Of a DNA stretch of 10,493 bases, positions 4,220 to 10,277 are shown in pieces (position 1 is the first letter of the stretch; each line of letters starts with the position of its first letter). The notes beneath the pieces are model-generated. The model made no database searches. It was given only the letters and a program-made list of their open reading frames with translations, and had not been told where the DNA came from. The DNA is taken from NCBI GenBank assembly GCA_017517985.1, contig JAFWWX010000155.1, positions 1 through 10,493 of the forward strand, written 5' to 3'. Made by a program: the position numbers and the translations under genes. This stretch comes from Clostridia bacterium (lineage in GTDB: Bacteria; Bacillota_A; Clostridia; Oscillospirales; CAG-382).

Positions 4220-4227
4220 ATAAATTA

Positions 4228-4638
4228 ATGGATAAAAAATATTATTGGATTATTGATGGAAATTACTACGAAGTTTCAAAAGAAACATATCAAAAACTAA
4301 AAAAAGAACACGACCACAGTAAACGTCTCGAAAAATATGAAAATGAGGCGGTTATTCTTTCTTTGGATGCTCTTGTAACAGAGGATCATAATGGTTACGA
4401 CTTTGTTGCGGATCCTGATGTTAATGTTGAAGATGAAGCCATACAAAATGTAATGATTGGAAAATTAAGAGCAATTCTTAAGAGCCTGTCAGAGAAAGAA
4501 TTAGAGCTTATACATATGCTTTACGAACTTAATAAAAGTGAGCGCGAAATTGCTGAAAAGCTCGATATTTCGCAGAATGCAGTACATAAGCAAAAGAAGA
4601 AGTTGTTGGCGAAATTAAAAAAATTTTTAGAAAGTTGA
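4228..4638 (+). CDS. Sigma-70 region-4-like regulatory protein
   Basis: The protein has 136 residues. ATG 4228 has GGAGGA at 4215-4220, eight bases away; earlier in-frame starts overlap that site. Residues 1-65 are unassigned, with many Lys, Tyr and acidic residues. Residues 78-134 resemble sigma-70 region 4: ILKSLSEKELELIHMLYELN, then SEREIAEKLDISQNAVHKQKKKLLAKLKKFL with the helix-turn-helix at about 103-125. There is no region 2, so it cannot be a complete sigma factor alone. Small proteins of this type occur in Gram-positive conjugative elements, where they are thought to act as sigma-like activators. It lies behind an attenuator and two terminators, so its expression looks strongly restrained. 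The likely targets are the ncRNA and recombinase genes downstream, which is inference. Confidence 0.8.
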   Translation: MDKKYYWIIDGNYYEVSKETYQKLKKEHDHSKRLEKYENEAVILSLDALVTEDHNGYDFVADPDVNVEDEAIQNVMIGKLRAILKSLSEKELELIHMLYELNKSEREIAEKLDISQNAVHKQKKKLLAKLKKFLES

Positions 4639-4764: not shown

Positions 4765-5089
4765 AAGTTGCGAATGCGCCAAGACTACCTGTGGAGGACA
4801 AACCTTCATAAAACGGACCGCTGAAACTAAGGTACGAGCGTGTATCCATTTAGCAACAGTACGGAGAGTAACTTACCGTACCTGCCATGACGGTTATTGC
4901 CTATAATGATACTCCCGTATAGTCGAGGTTAGGTCCCAGAGTACGGCCCGGGCGATGCCGGGGAGGTGAGAGTCCTGTGATGCTTTAAGTTAAAGCAGTT
5001 CGATTGATTGCCCGTAAGTCAGGGGACAGGAATAATACTGATTGTGGTAAAGTTACTTAAAGAACCTATAAGGTTTAGTTATAAGCCAG
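4765..5089 (+). ncRNA. Probable structured non-coding RNA, family not assigned
   Basis: About 330 bases lack any plausible reading frame, are richer in G+C than their surroundings, and contain many complementary segments. Helices I can trace are ACCTT/AAGGT (4802-4806 with 4829-4833), GTACGG/CCGTAC (4859-4864 with 4876-4881), CTATA/TATAG (4901-4905 with 4918-4922), GTCCC/GGGAC (4933-4937 with 5023-5027), CGGGCGAT/ATTGCCCG (4949-4956 with 5007-5014), TGCTTT/AAAGCA (4981-4986 with 4992-4997) and AACCT/AGGTT (5063-5067 with 5071-5075). The 4933/5023, 4949/5007 and 4981/4992 helices nest. CCCGG/CCGGG (4947-4951 with 4958-4962) competes, and TCCTG/CAGGA (4973-4977 with 5027-5031) would cross them, hinting at a pseudoknot. 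A terminator follows at once. Known RNase P, tmRNA or intron cores are not recognisable. The raiA RNA motif, known from Clostridia and integrative elements, is the first family to test, but I cannot confirm it. The 5' end is a guess. Confidence 0.6.
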
Positions 5090-5146: not shown

Positions 5147-5317
5147 ATGGCAAATGATAAGTTAAAGGATATGTCCATCTTCATTTATATAATGCATATG
5201 ATGGAGAATTGCACAGAATTGAATGAAGTCGTAAAAAACGACATGAAAGAAATAAGAAAATACTTTAATTCGAACTTAAATATAGAAGTAAAAAATGTTG
5301 CATTTGATGCAAATTAA
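5147..5317 (+). CDS. Small protein of 56 residues, unknown
   Basis: ATG 5147 has a clear GGAGGA site at 5135-5140, which favours it over a TTG at 5105 that lies inside the terminator. The product begins MANDKLKDMSIFIYIMHMME and is predicted largely helical and mildly acidic, without Cys pairs, signal peptide or obvious HTH. I do not recognise the family. It lies 89 bases ahead of the first recombinase with no clear terminator between (only a weak ACCAAT/GTTGGT repeat at 5317-5334), so it may be cotranscribed with the recombinases. A small helical protein next to a serine recombinase could be a recombination directionality factor or regulator, but there is no direct sign of this. Confidence 0.6.
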   Translation: MANDKLKDMSIFIYIMHMMENCTELNEVVKNDMKEIRKYFNSNLNIEVKNVAFDAN

Positions 5318-5406: not shown

Positions 5407-6966
5407 ATGGCTGAAGTATTAGTTATAAATCCTACGAAGACAGATGTAAAAATAAACGGACTGAAAAGAGTTGGAGCATACATAAGAGTAAGCAGTGATT
5501 CTGAAGATCAGGAAAACTCATTCGTAACTCAGTATGACCACTACATGAACCTTATCGCCAGTAATCCTGAATGGATGTTGGTTGATATATACAAGGATGA
5601 CGGAATCACAGGAACCGAAATGGAATGCCGTGATGATTTCAACAGAATGTATCAAGATTGCGTAGATGGTAAGCTCGACCTTATACTCACAAAGTCAATA
5701 TCCAGATTCGCTCGTAACACTTATGACTGTATCGATACAACACGAAAATTTAAGATACTTGGTGTAGACATAATATTCGAAAAAGAAAATATCGATACGA
5801 GTAAGATGACAAGTGAGACGGAATTGGCTGCATTGAGTTCAATGGCACAGGAAGAATCAATCTCACTGTCACAGAATGTACGGCTCGGAATTCAACACAG
5901 AATGAAAAACGGTACATTCAAACAAGGTTGCATACCATATGGATACTACCTTGGTGAAAATGGAGAATGGAAAATAAATGAAGAACAGGCGAAAATAGTT
6001 CGCCTTATCTTTAATGCATATATAAACGGGATGAGCCTTTGGAAAATAGCCGAAGAACTTAAAAAGGCAGGAGTGATAAAAAACAACGGCTCAACCGATT
6101 GGGGAGAAAACAGAATCAGGTACATAATTAAAAATGAAAGGTATAAGGGAGATGCTCTTCTGCAGAAAACATATACAGAAGACTTCCCGTTCAAGTCAAG
6201 AACCAATCACGGTGAAAAAGATATGTACTATGTGAAAAACAGTAACCCTGCAATAGTTACAGCAGACATATTCGAAAAGGCAAACGAACTGCTGAAAGCA
6301 CAAGGCAAGAGGTACAGACCGAGTACAACACCTAAAGAACATACACTTTCTAAGATGATATACTGTGAAGAGTGTGGCACACTGTTCAGAAAAAAATCAG
6401 GTGAAGTTAATGTGTATTGGGTATGCAGAACAAGAGACTACAGTAGTAAGGAATGCCCAACACCGCAGGTGGCGGAAAAGGCAGTAATGAATGCCTTTGT
6501 GAATATGTACAACAGACTTGTAAATAATGTGGACATCATTCTCACTCCGATGCTGACACAACTGACAGAATATAAGGACCAGAGAATGATAGACAAGGGT
6601 GAAATTGCAAATATAAATAAAGAAATAGCAGAATTAACAGAGCAGGTTCATGTACTCCAGAACGCAAAAGCGAATGGATACATTGAACCTGCTTCCTTTA
6701 TGGAAAGAATGAATGAAATCGCAACAAGAACTGCGAAGCTGAGAAAGGACAAAAAGTTCCTGCTTGGCAATGACGAATGCGAACAGGCAAGAAAGAAAAC
6801 GGAAATGCTTGTAAATTACATAAGGACCGCAGGACCTATGGGAGAGTTCGATAAAAAAGCATTAAGAAAGATAGTAACCCGAATTCTCGTAAACAAAGAC
6901 AAGGACCTGACCTTCGAACTTATAAACGGTCTGAAACTGAAAATCAAGTATAGCGAGGTGGCATAG
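5407..6966 (+). CDS. Large serine recombinase 1 (complete)
   Basis: This 519-aa protein is of normal length for a large serine recombinase, the enzymes that integrate and excise elements by double-strand cleavage through a serine-DNA bond. Residues 20-165 are the catalytic domain: AYIRVSS holds the nucleophile Ser29, and TKSISRFARN gives Ser99, Arg100 and Arg103. Residues about 180-290 are the recombinase domain, with IPYGYYLGENGEW and later IRYIIKNERYKGDALLQKTY. Cys320, Cys323, Cys340 and Cys350 form the zinc ribbon. About 395-450 looks like a coiled coil, as used to hold synapses. ATG 5407 is chosen because AAAGGAG (5391-5397) lies nine bases upstream; ATG 5398 touches that site. The next gene starts 3 bases after the stop, with its ribosome site inside this gene, so the two are translationally coupled. 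Confidence 0.93.
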   Translation: MAEVLVINPTKTDVKINGLKRVGAYIRVSSDSEDQENSFVTQYDHYMNLIASNPEWMLVDIYKDDGITGTEMECRDDFNRMYQDCVDGKLDLILTKSISRFARNTYDCIDTTRKFKILGVDIIFEKENIDTSKMTSETELAALSSMAQEESISLSQNVRLGIQHRMKNGTFKQGCIPYGYYLGENGEWKINEEQAKIVRLIFNAYINGMSLWKIAEELKKAGVIKNNGSTDWGENRIRYIIKNERYKGDALLQKTYTEDFPFKSRTNHGEKDMYYVKNSNPAIVTADIFEKANELLKAQGKRYRPSTTPKEHTLSKMIYCEECGTLFRKKSGEVNVYWVCRTRDYSSKECPTPQVAEKAVMNAFVNMYNRLVNNVDIILTPMLTQLTEYKDQRMIDKGEIANINKEIAELTEQVHVLQNAKANGYIEPASFMERMNEIATRTAKLRKDKKFLLGNDECEQARKKTEMLVNYIRTAGPMGEFDKKALRKIVTRILVNKDKDLTFELINGLKLKIKYSEVA

Positions 6967-6969
6967 GAA

Positions 6970-7848
6970 ATGGCTAACAGATACATACCCTTTGGATATG
7001 AAATCATAGATGCAAAGGTTGAAATCATCGAAAGAGAAGCAGAAGTGGTAAGGAATGTGTTCAGTCTGTATGTACAAGGACATTCATTAAAAACCATAGC
7101 AGAAAGACTGAACTTGCTTCCAATAAGCTATGCAGGAGATGGTCGAGAATGGGATAAGAACATGGTAAAGAGAATGCTCGAAAACAAGAAATACACAGGC
7201 GATAAAGACTACCCCGTAATCATACCACCTGAAACCGCAGAGCTTGCACTGCAATGCAAGGACAAGCGTGGCGGAGAACTCAGCGATGAGGACAAGATAA
7301 AGCTTGATACATATCGCTTAAAAACCTGCTGTGCAATCTGCGGAGCGAAGATGACAAGAAAGCATGCAGGCTCAGGAAAGAAGAGAAGAGTGTATTGGCA
7401 ATGCACCAATAACGAGTGTGATGGTAGCAGACACTTATTCAGAGAAAGAATACTTGACAATATAATCACAGAATTCCTTAACGAACTCACAGATGACCTT
7501 GCAATGATAGAGCATACAGAGGAGAGAGACTACGAAAAGGATACCGAGATTATTAGGATGACAAATGAAATGCATGAAATGATGCAAAGGCCCGATGCAG
7601 ATGCAGAAGATGTCATTGGCAGAATCATGGACCTTGCTACAAAGAAATTCGAGATGTGCAAGGTAGGAGATAATACTGCAATAACAAAGAACATTCAGAC
7701 CGAACTCGCCATATTCCCAAAGAAAGAAAATGTGGATGGCAAAATGGTAGGGAAAATTGTGAAATCAATAAGAATGCATCCTGACAAGCATGTGTGGGTG
7801 CAACTGATAAATGGAAAAGAATTCGAAAGGAATGAAAAAGCCATATAG
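6970..7848 (+). CDS. Serine-recombinase-like protein without a catalytic domain
   Basis: The protein has 292 residues and begins with ANRYIPFGYEIIDAKVEIIE, which lines up with the start of the recombinase (DNA-binding) domain of the upstream recombinase at about residue 180. A recombinase domain (about 5-105, ending in VKRMLENKKYTGD) and a zinc ribbon (Cys121, Cys124, Cys145, Cys150) follow, then a short helical region and a C-terminal segment like that of the recombinase. The resolvase domain with the serine nucleophile is absent. It is no recent deletion: the gene has its own site (AGGTGG 6956-6961) and start, and sits 3 bases behind recombinase 1. It should bind DNA without cutting it. A role as accessory subunit, attachment-site specificity partner or directionality factor is inference. 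Confidence 0.88.
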   Translation: MANRYIPFGYEIIDAKVEIIEREAEVVRNVFSLYVQGHSLKTIAERLNLLPISYAGDGREWDKNMVKRMLENKKYTGDKDYPVIIPPETAELALQCKDKRGGELSDEDKIKLDTYRLKTCCAICGAKMTRKHAGSGKKRRVYWQCTNNECDGSRHLFRERILDNIITEFLNELTDDLAMIEHTEERDYEKDTEIIRMTNEMHEMMQRPDADAEDVIGRIMDLATKKFEMCKVGDNTAITKNIQTELAIFPKKENVDGKMVGKIVKSIRMHPDKHVWVQLINGKEFERNEKAI

Positions 7849-7862
7849 AAAGGAGAATAGCT

Positions 7863-9503
7863 ATGGATGTAAGATATAGCGAGACTCAGGTAATGCCCGA
7901 ATTGGAAGTAGTGGTAATACCTGCAACAAAAAGCCCTGTAGAAAAGAAAAAGAAAGGTAAGAAACGAGTTGCAGCCTATTGTCGTGTAAGTACAGATGAT
8001 GAAGAACAACTCACAAGTTATACTGCACAGATAGAACACTATACGCAGGTCATAGAAAGTAACCCTGAATGGAAACTCGTAAAAGTATTCGCAGACGAGG
8101 GTATAACAGGTGTTATGGCAAAAAAGAGAGACGAATTCAATGAAATGATTGATATGTGTCGGGAAAAGAAAATAGACCACATCATCACAAAGTCAATATC
8201 AAGATTTGCTAGAAATATAGTCGACAGTATTAAGTACATAAGAGAACTGAAGGCTCTTGGAATATCCATCTACTTCGAAAAAGAAAACATTGACACAGGC
8301 GAAATGACAAGCGAAATGATGGTGGCTTTATATAGCGTATTCGCACAGGCAGAAAGTGAATCAATAAGTAACAATGTAAAGCTTGGTAAGAGATTTAACT
8401 ATAAATTAGGAAGAGTTCCGATGATGTATGGAACATTACTTGGCTACAGAAAAGGTGAAGATGGTAATCCCGAAATCATACCTGAAGAAGCCGAGATAAT
8501 CGAAATCATATACACGAAATTCCTCGAAGGATACAGTTATCATGGAATAGCACAGTACCTTATGGAAAAGGGATACAAAACAAAAAAAGGGAAGACAGAA
8601 TGGAAAAGGTCTGTAATACAGGGAATACTGCACAATGAAAAATATAGAGGGGATGTCCTTGTCCAAAAGACCTATGTGGTGGACTTGTTCACAAAGAAAA
8701 TCGCAAAGAATACAGGCGAACTTCCTATGTACTTAATAAGAAATCACCATATTCCAATCATCACTCCCGAAGTATATGATCAGGTGCAGGTTGAGTGTGC
8801 AAGAAGAAACAGCCTTAAGCCAGTATCTGAAAAGACAGTATCTAAGAAATCAAGGTTCAACAGTAAATATGCCTTGACAGGGCTAGTAGTATGTGCAAAC
8901 TGCGGAAGTAAATACCGCAGAACAACGTGGGCAAGAAATGGCAAGAAGAAAGTCGTATGGAGATGCATAAACAGACTTGACTACGGCACGAAATACTGTA
9001 AGGACTCATTCACCATAGAAGAAGAAAGACTGCATGCAGGAGTGCTTGAAGCGATGAACTCAATGCTTGATAACACAGATAAAATCAAGGCCTTGATGAA
9101 AGGTAGCATCGCAGAATTACTATCAGCACCCAATACAGTCATGCAAATACATGGACTTGAAAGCAGTATAAAAGCCAAGAACAACGAAATCGTAGAGATA
9201 ATACGGTTAGGCGTAGAAAACAGAGAAGACAGAAATGTCATAGAAGAAAAATGCCGTCAAAAGCATAAAGAGGTAAATGAGCTACAGGCGAGGCTCAATG
9301 CTGCCACTGCGAAAAGTCAAATAGAAAACGCTCAGACAGGTCAGCTCAGAGCAATATATGACATCATAGACAAGCTTCCCGGAAAATTCGTAACATTTGA
9401 TGATACCGTAGTGAAGTCGATGGTGACAAGAGTGAAAGTAGTATCACAAGAAAAAATTGAGGTAACCTTATTCGATGCGGTTACACTCGCAGTAAACATA
9501 TAA
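7863..9503 (+). CDS. Large serine recombinase 2 (complete)
   Basis: This 546-aa protein has the full set of large serine recombinase parts. A basic N-terminal extension (KKKKGKKR) precedes AYCRVST with the nucleophile Ser43. TKSISRFARN supplies Ser113, Arg114 and Arg117, and FEKENIDTGEMTSEMM follows as in the family. The recombinase domain spans about 200-310. The zinc ribbon has Cys344, Cys347, Cys368 and Cys379. A charged coiled coil is likely at about 430-490. AAAGGAG (7849-7855) precedes ATG 7863 by seven bases. It is a paralogue of recombinase 1 (shared TKSISRFARN, FEKENIDT and SNPEW), but clearly diverged. Both enzymes keep all catalytic residues that can be seen, so the pair may act together on different half-sites, as CcrA/CcrB do in staphylococcal cassettes, or separately; the sequence does not say which. 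Confidence 0.93.
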   Translation: MDVRYSETQVMPELEVVVIPATKSPVEKKKKGKKRVAAYCRVSTDDEEQLTSYTAQIEHYTQVIESNPEWKLVKVFADEGITGVMAKKRDEFNEMIDMCREKKIDHIITKSISRFARNIVDSIKYIRELKALGISIYFEKENIDTGEMTSEMMVALYSVFAQAESESISNNVKLGKRFNYKLGRVPMMYGTLLGYRKGEDGNPEIIPEEAEIIEIIYTKFLEGYSYHGIAQYLMEKGYKTKKGKTEWKRSVIQGILHNEKYRGDVLVQKTYVVDLFTKKIAKNTGELPMYLIRNHHIPIITPEVYDQVQVECARRNSLKPVSEKTVSKKSRFNSKYALTGLVVCANCGSKYRRTTWARNGKKKVVWRCINRLDYGTKYCKDSFTIEEERLHAGVLEAMNSMLDNTDKIKALMKGSIAELLSAPNTVMQIHGLESSIKAKNNEIVEIIRLGVENREDRNVIEEKCRQKHKEVNELQARLNAATAKSQIENAQTGQLRAIYDIIDKLPGKFVTFDDTVVKSMVTRVKVVSQEKIEVTLFDAVTLAVNI

Positions 9504-9520
9504 TATGGGAGGAAAGACAA

Positions 9521-9895
9521 GTGACAAAGAGAATTATCACAGAAAATGAAATGGACAAGTTGCTCGATCAGTTAACTTGGAAGGTGGAATTGAAATACTC
9601 TGAAAGACCGGGGTTTAAACAGGTAATTGATGCCATTAAGAAAAAGAGGGCAAATTGCGTTTATATGGTATATGTAAGTACATTATCGCAAAATCCAGCT
9701 GATGTGAGAGAAGCTTGTAAGTTGCTCAAAGATTTAGGTGCATCAATCAACTTCATTAAAGACAATGTTACAAGTGAAGATATACTCAAAATGGATATAT
9801 TCACATTGGACAACCTGACCATTAATACTGTCAAAGAGGATATCTTAATGGTAGTGAATTCGGAAGAAACATACAACGAACTGACTAAGTGCTGA
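9521..9895 (+). CDS. Degenerate serine-recombinase catalytic-domain protein
   Basis: The protein has 124 residues. GTG 9521 is chosen for its GGGAGGAAAG site (9507-9516). Residues 29-88 align without gaps to residues 89-148 of the recombinase just upstream: RPGF/RDEF at the start, then STLSQN against SRFARN, then LLKDLGASINFIKDN against ELKALGISIYFEKEN, with 17 of 60 positions identical by my count. The first strand with the nucleophile serine is missing, and both arginines of SRFAR are replaced (Thr54, Gln57). There is no recombinase domain or zinc ribbon. The frame is intact and well translated, so this looks like a maintained non-catalytic protein rather than debris. It could pair with the catalytic domain of a recombinase and modulate it; this is inference. 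It lies 17 bases after recombinase 2. Confidence 0.75.
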   Translation: MTKRIITENEMDKLLDQLTWKVELKYSERPGFKQVIDAIKKKRANCVYMVYVSTLSQNPADVREACKLLKDLGASINFIKDNVTSEDILKMDIFTLDNLTINTVKEDILMVVNSEETYNELTKC

Positions 9896-9909: not shown

Positions 9910-10029
9910 ATGAAGAAATATTATAAATTCAGTGATAGCAAAGGAAGGATATATTGGTATGCATTTGAGAGTAGGGATGAAGCAGCAAGGTATGGATATG
10001 TTCATGGACTCTGCTTCATGGGCAGTTGA
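9910..10029 (+). CDS. Small protein of 39 residues, unknown
   Basis: ATG 9910 has a good AGGGGG site at 9897-9902 and lies 14 bases after the previous stop. The product begins MKKYYKFSDSKGRIYWYAFE and continues SRDEAARYGYVHGLCFMGS. It is rich in aromatic and basic residues in the first half, with a pattern (strand, turn, strand, then a helix SRDEAARYGY) that suggests a small folded beta-beta-alpha unit. I do not recognise it. Its place at the end of a recombinase operon makes it a candidate DNA-binding directionality factor, on position only. The next gene begins 5 bases after its stop. Confidence 0.6.
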   Translation: MKKYYKFSDSKGRIYWYAFESRDEAARYGYVHGLCFMGS

Positions 10030-10034
10030 TATGT

Positions 10035-10277
10035 ATGTCATACTACGAGATAATTGTAATTTATGATAAAGAGTATGGCGAAGTCATTGCCTTTGAAAGC
10101 AACGCTATTATGAATGATTCCAATGACATCGTAACAGAAGCTATCCGGTTAATGCTATTCGAAGAAGAGTATCGTAATAAAGTTAGATGGGCACATTGCG
10201 TGTCTGAGTATGAATATGAATACATAGAAAAAGGACAGAGAAAAAGGAGTGTATGTACTGTCCAAGAATACAAATAA
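10035..10277 (+). CDS. Small acidic protein of 80 residues, unknown
   Basis: ATG 10035 gives MSYYEIIVIYDKEYGEVIAF at the N terminus. A TTG at 10026 overlaps the stop of the previous gene and would add three residues. No clear ribosome site is present for either, so translation probably depends on coupling to the upstream gene. The protein has strand-like stretches at the start and end, a Glu/Tyr-rich segment (SEYEYEYIEKGQRKR) and two Cys. No signal peptide, membrane segment or known domain is visible. It is the last gene before a terminator and most likely closes the recombinase operon. Confidence 0.55.
   Translation: MSYYEIIVIYDKEYGEVIAFESNAIMNDSNDIVTEAIRLMLFEEEYRNKVRWAHCVSEYEYEYIEKGQRKRSVCTVQEYK

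Follow-up and report, generated by a model that had tools for sequence, protein, structure and literature searches.

The window, i.e. the whole stretch of 10,493 nt analysed here, carries on its forward strand four recombinase-derived genes, designated A, M, C and D, preceded by a regulator gene and a pemK RNA motif and followed by smaller reading frames and the start of a longer gene:

4225..4638, + strand: sigma-70 region 4-like regulator (Sigma70_r4, 2.8e-7), upstream of the recombinase module
4903..4980, + strand: pemK RNA motif (RF02913; 59.6 bits against a gathering threshold of 34.8), about 0.43 kb 5' of A
5147..5317, + strand: 56-aa ORF, 3' of the RNA motif and 5' of A, matching no family below E 0.03
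5407..6966, + strand: A, complete large serine recombinase of 519 aa (PF00239, PF07508, PF13408; RVS at 27, SRFAR at 99)
6970..7848, + strand: M, large serine recombinase of 292 aa without catalytic domain (PF07508 and PF13408)
7863..9503, + strand: C, complete large serine recombinase of 546 aa (PF00239, PF07508, PF13408; RVS at 41, SRFAR at 113)
9521..9895, + strand: D, stand-alone degenerate catalytic-domain core of 124 aa with a GTG start (partial PF00239, 7e-6)
9910..10029, + strand: 39-aa ORF 3' of D, without family match
10035..10277, + strand: conserved small gene 3' of the module; similar small proteins follow the module in loci L001, L003, L081 and L111
10343..10493, + strand: first part of a conserved gene of about 250 aa that runs past the window end; its counterparts lie close to the right end in related elements

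As the original prediction had it, all four frames between 5407 and 9895 are intact, the intergenic gaps are 3 (A-M), 14 (M-C) and 17 nt (C-D), and by Pfam and motifs A and C are complete, M lacks the catalytic domain and D is a degenerate catalytic core. Proteins similar to the regulator at 4225..4638 are encoded upstream of A in L001, L081 and L022, and the gene cut by the window end shares 56% identity over 50 aa with a gene of genome G092 and has similar genes in L002, L003, L081 and L111. No tRNA gene was found in the window. A run of C at about 1060-1068, near the end of the ORF at 733-1077, is possibly slippery.

Both A and C match PF00239 Resolvase (E 2e-25 and 1e-31, respectively), PF07508 Recombinase and the PF13408 zinc ribbon, all three above cut-off, which places them among the large serine recombinases; their RVS and SRFAR motifs we take to carry the catalytic Ser and Arg. 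The top PDB match of C is 3g13 (E 1.2e-44). M matches PF07508 (4e-13) and PF13408 (1.6e-6), which together characterise the DNA-binding half of such enzymes; PF00239 was not detected in it at E ≤ 1 in the Pfam search, and M is thus not classed as an active enzyme. It begins where the catalytic domain ends and consists of the recombinase domain, the zinc ribbon with a helical hairpin, and C-terminal strands. Its fold is that of the DNA-binding half of a recombinase, the fold matches beginning at about residue 153-182 of the recombinase chains.

A scan of other genomes seeded with M, with one genome per species, returned 132 stretches and 117 relatives, of which 80 were kept, and viral contigs added 13. 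The full A-M-C order (complete - catalytic-less - complete) was present in 79 of these 93 loci, the remaining 14 being cut, broken or N-masked; it should be noted that L085, counted among the 79, has a broken C and qualifies through a distant recombinase. As M had served as the bait, the scan was repeated with C, which gave at least 600 stretches and at least 506 relatives. The best 80 were kept, 79 of them not classed before. Triplets were found in 77 of the 79, the other two (L289 and L305) are cut before A, and not one locus was without M; this set may include near-copies, and some contigs are common to both scans. The gene order noted in the window thus recurs widely as far as A-M-C is concerned, and D is mostly missing. 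Five named records also carry the triplet, namely phi1605 (520/138/520 aa), Javan105 (521/138/523 aa), TPDSL_ph1 (517/137/523 aa) and NatCom_28274, all with a short M, and the Ruminococcus albus 7 plasmid pRUMAL02 (512/289/545 aa). A search for M in plasmids gave no match, yet pRUMAL02 has a middle gene by position. In L088, M and C are preceded by a row of four more large serine recombinase genes.

Together with the window and the five named records, the 79 M-seeded loci make up 85 triplets, in which M measures 274-350 aa (76 triplets) or 137-150 aa (nine). With M starts taken from the annotation or the longest ORF, the recombinase-domain match begins at M residue 1-5 in 60 of the 85. Relatives of M numbered 148, and 55 of the 120 listed share 45-82% identity with it over at least 97% of its length, at sizes of 287-315 aa; the zinc-ribbon cysteines 121, 124, 145 and 150 are invariant across 30 sequences. 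The dN/dS ratio, which the original prediction had proposed to compute for the non-catalytic genes, revealed constraint on M, with a median of 0.144 (range 0.044-0.312) over 119 pairs, i.e. those of 367 with an M dS of 0.3-1.5, drawn from 54 loci and hence non-independent; the medians of A and C were 0.135 (81 pairs) and 0.083 (87 pairs), respectively. In a tree of 229 recombinase domains, which suffers from long branches and a small number of columns, positions A, M and C require two changes each and the short M one, as compared with shuffled means of 65, 60, 63 and 8. Conserved, constrained and fixed in a recombinase operon, M is not debris and is likely to take a working part in recombination. 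The original prediction, which did not include the tRNA-end and terminator target described below, is supported in part, for M more than for D.

The situation of D is different. The expectation that the short genes would be neither absent nor broken in most related elements holds for M, whereas D is largely absent from them. Its sole Pfam match is a partial one to PF00239 (7e-6, profile positions 46-107 of 145); RVS is lacking and STLSQ stands in the place of SRFAR, so that D does not have the make-up of an active serine resolvase. The structure model is weak (pLDDT 54.9), the first Foldseek row being the catalytic domain 3g13 (E 9e-3). Nevertheless, 20 of 22 candidates proved to be members of a D family, intact and with 40-100% coverage. 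Outside near kin, a D homologue was detected at E ≤ 1e-12 in one of 391 genomes of the class (G092), in series with a 267-aa protein composed of two degenerate catalytic domains; such a 267-aa two-domain degenerate protein also directly follows C in L002. There was no D-sized protein among the best 60 D-profile matches in L001-L093, and no relatives of D were found in viral contigs. Judged by its intact relatives, D is a real conserved protein family, confined to near kin and thus lineage-specific. Manual reading revealed degenerate catalytic-domain pieces beside 11 of the 93 triplet loci (L002, L009, L010, L012, L014, L022, L024, L025, L026, L064 and L086); the stand-alone pieces other than the D family have no canonical serine motif and lie mostly upstream of A. 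As similar pieces occur at other loci, D is one case of a looser habit. ORFs of 54 aa, located just before or overlapping the A start in L010, L022, L024 and L025, resemble the first piece of a catalytic domain with an altered RVS.

Near-identical modules at different places revealed a sharp common end of the related elements downstream of C. Right ends of groups X, Y, P and W finish in ACA, with sequences differing between the groups. By eye, a terminator-like hairpin stands at the start of the host side, or within about 25 nt of it, at 20 of 21 right ends; the count leaves out L079 and L063, whose flanks resemble another element's left end, and L123, with a 45-nt flank and a weak hairpin. 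The exception is L024, where a T run is followed by a tRNA gene with no such hairpin. The window's clade contributes two of the 21 (L081 and L111), on the terminator side only. Seven ends found later by motif alone (L009, L068 and L174-L178) are all hairpin-flanked, with the arms at both element ends alike; L174-L178 are putative ends of triplet elements. Under strict terminator criteria only 8 of 14 right ends qualified, against 498 of 4000 control places in the flanks and 257 of 4000 inner ones, and at 13 right-end sites, L079 and L063 included, the mean was -21.0 versus -10.3 kcal/mol (Mann-Whitney p 1.6e-8). The right-end pattern of group X was matched in one of 392 further genomes, one already known, and no empty sites in relatives were obtained via synteny. 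From position 14335 of L079, the right end is followed by sequence like the left end of another element, in the manner of a tandem array. A Gut-1 RNA lies at 12680-12750 of L006, in host DNA just past the right end of the element.

In groups X and Y the left end falls on the CA within the 3' CCA of tmRNA or of tRNA genes of diverse kinds. In all ten readable left ends (L166 included; L197 and L198 are too short to read), GTTCRANTC stands at a constant distance from the core, which is CA in nine and TA in one (L195, genome G400); a right end of G400, L123, located on another contig, also reads TA. ARAGORN identified the gene at seven of the ten (tRNA-Ser twice, Asp, Pro, Arg, Leu and one tmRNA), the elements of G285 and G397 starting at a tRNA-Ser and a tRNA-Leu gene, respectively. 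Searches with inner arms yielded four more readable ends for group X (Arg, Ser, tmRNA and one tRNA-like 3' part) and three ends at tRNA 3' ends for group Y (Asp, Pro and one 3' part), along with two three-mismatch group Y left-end matches in G500 away from tRNA genes, one by a hairpin and one by nothing. At L184, L166 and L195 the tRNA is represented by its 3' half alone, a hint that T arm and acceptor are enough. The triplet seems to read what tRNA genes share, and not one gene. Terminators as a target in themselves, first suggested by the right ends, were rejected: with the left ends at tRNA 3' ends, the hairpins make better sense as tRNA terminators that have been displaced.

In four cases, each with one pair of ends, a single contig holds the triplet together with both element ends: G285 (about 46 kb), G397 (77 kb), G395 (61 kb) and G1242 (63 kb), the last being Oscillibacter valericigenes Sjm18-20, where manual reading places the element at about 4,179,467-4,242,107 of the genome. 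In group Y, manual reading of the arms shows inverted repeats of 18 bp that flank a 12-nt spacer with CA at its centre. The G285 element carries a MobL relaxase, TrbL and a coupling protein, and no tyrosine recombinase was detected among the 30 of its proteins scanned. Its cargo adjoining the right end (L022, 12929-16525) comprises ABC-three-component parts (CTD7, middle component 3 and DUF3732), and on the minus strand at about 3491-5461 of L022 lies a protein start which, as we presume, resembles ribosomal-protection tetracycline-resistance proteins. For the window's clade and group P no left end was found, nor were inverted arms for group P. The arm search for the window's clade matched 46 of 391 genomes, the reversed control also giving several hits; among 40 loci read, five new ones lie by a hairpin (L223, L229, L232, L234 and L236). 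No homologues of A, M, C or D were found near these five (four contigs followed for 17-19 kb and one for 3 kb), which were for that reason not counted as element ends.

Among established systems, the nearest known kind is the triplet of streptococcal ICEs (Tn1806-like), with three serine integrases in a row (PMC4701971, PMC12942858, PMC13214566). All of these serine integrases are reported to carry the catalytic Resolvase domain, and the triplets to insert in mutT, traG, hsdM and other protein genes. The sets searched contained no Tn1806-type triplet. Shared traits are the conjugative element, the clustering by position and the very short core at the ends; the module described here differs in that the middle gene has no catalytic domain and that related elements sit at the 3' ends of tRNA and tmRNA genes. 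A-M-C is not a row of three genes each with a Resolvase domain, since M has none. Records of phages of Streptococcus, Erysipelothrix, Ruminococcus and Terrisporobacter and of Enterococcus faecium plasmids show the complete - catalytic-less - complete order under the names recombinase, DNA invertase or integrase, but with a middle protein of about 138 aa and the recombinase domain only, as compared with about 290 aa and a zinc ribbon here. The gin element of Bacillus cereus has three serine recombinase genes, girA, girB and girC, of which girC stands apart from girAB and works with GirX; the target is gerE, and girAB is dispensable for its rearrangement (PMC5595907). They do not form one module, unlike A-M-C. 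Three recombinases in elements are also mentioned, without the present analysis, in PMC6814731 and PMC11083093. Staphylococcal cassettes encode two different large serine recombinases, CcrA and CcrB, in one operon, a pair also discussed in PMC5595907. The NCBIfam Ccr equivalog models, however, scored far below cut-off on the window proteins (best 117.7 bits versus 900). We know of no catalytic-less third protein in Ccr systems. No description of a catalytic-less triplet member, of triplets at many tRNA genes or of insertion at terminators was found in open PMC papers, and the siting of triplets at diverse tRNA ends in groups X and Y is new here, as are the hairpins faced by the right ends of four groups.

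The explanation we favour, with a probability of about 0.62, is that catalytic A and C together with an obligate non-catalytic M would constitute a heteromeric serine integrase, serving a Clostridia mobile element as its integration/excision module. A and C would make a staggered cut and exchange strands at CA; one half-site of attB would be the tRNA end, with its shared T arm, and the other would be arbitrary. As M keeps the att-binding half, uneven reading of half-sites or the setting of direction could naturally fall to it: placed on DNA beside A and C, it may read a half-site, be it on the T-arm side of attB or in the attP arms, or alternatively control direction via its helical hairpin. 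D, present only in near kin, might pair with A or C to modulate them. The tRNA terminator would be displaced to the right end, as seen in groups X and Y and not in the window's own element. A narrower version, that an obligate three-protein integrase reads the T arm and CCA and cuts at the CA of CCA with M as reader of the T-arm half-site, is tentative and on balance doubtful.

M could also act apart from the recombination complex. It would then be a site-bound regulator and not a subunit of the synapse, occupying att half-sites or a promoter and repressing or timing A and C in the manner of a repressor or directionality factor. The retention of nothing but DNA-binding parts and a helical hairpin agrees with this, as do the degenerate pieces beside 11 of 93 triplet loci, which might be expected of modulators. 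However, a mere regulator would be lost more often, whereas M is as fixed as the enzymes, and it is translated between A and C with gaps that are short or negative in most triplets, so that we regard this explanation as unlikely. A further idea is that A and C do separate jobs, one for instance integrating and the other excising or inverting, with M serving one of them only. The two are distinct enzymes, 36% identical and largely in separate groups of the recombinase-domain tree (the short M forming a group of its own), and in 29 of the 119 pairs the divergence of A is more than double that of M, as if A had been swapped. Nonetheless, in the C-seeded set A and C always occur together with M, bar the two cut loci, and each of the four two-ended elements has a single end pair; a division of labour is quite improbable. 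That M and D each lack a domain of active recombinases could also mark them as vestiges of decayed genes, which is very hard to reconcile with the dN/dS of about 0.14, the invariant cysteines, the constant start and length of M in distant relatives and its one ancient grouping in the tree, or with the 20 intact relatives of D. Finally, A and M share a frame in the window (TAG GAA ATG), but readthrough of the A stop into one protein is scarcely credible and is refuted as a general mechanism, because the A-M gaps of the 85 triplets (-136 to 1694 nt) are often out of frame (-4, 1, 2, 4), and M has its own ATG.

The large serine integrases known to date are viewed as single proteins acting as identical subunits, and the use of tRNA genes is usually tied to tyrosine integrases, with one gene each. 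In the heteromeric integrase favoured here, a large class not found without its catalytic-less sister, subunit roles, half-site reading and direction would be testable by simple gene removal. The siting at tRNA 3' ends suggests that safe landing sites may be found in an unusual and general manner. If the T arm and CCA are indeed the target, the use of many tRNA genes by one integrase would be accounted for: nearly every tRNA or tmRNA gene in nearly every host would be open to the element and stay undamaged, at the sole cost of a displaced terminator, and the module would offer a portable tool for integration in Clostridia that resist engineering.

Along with the window, the pemK RNA motif was detected 5' of A in 10 of the 16 triplet loci scanned (L001, L002, L009, L012, L081, L022, L062, L077, L053 and L067), and of the six without it L003 begins inside A. 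The window has no PemK gene despite the motif, and L022 has one behind it. The motif is possibly a component of the recombinase module, and not of pemK. A c-di-GMP-I riboswitch lies at 6244-6333 of L062, upstream of the module of that locus.
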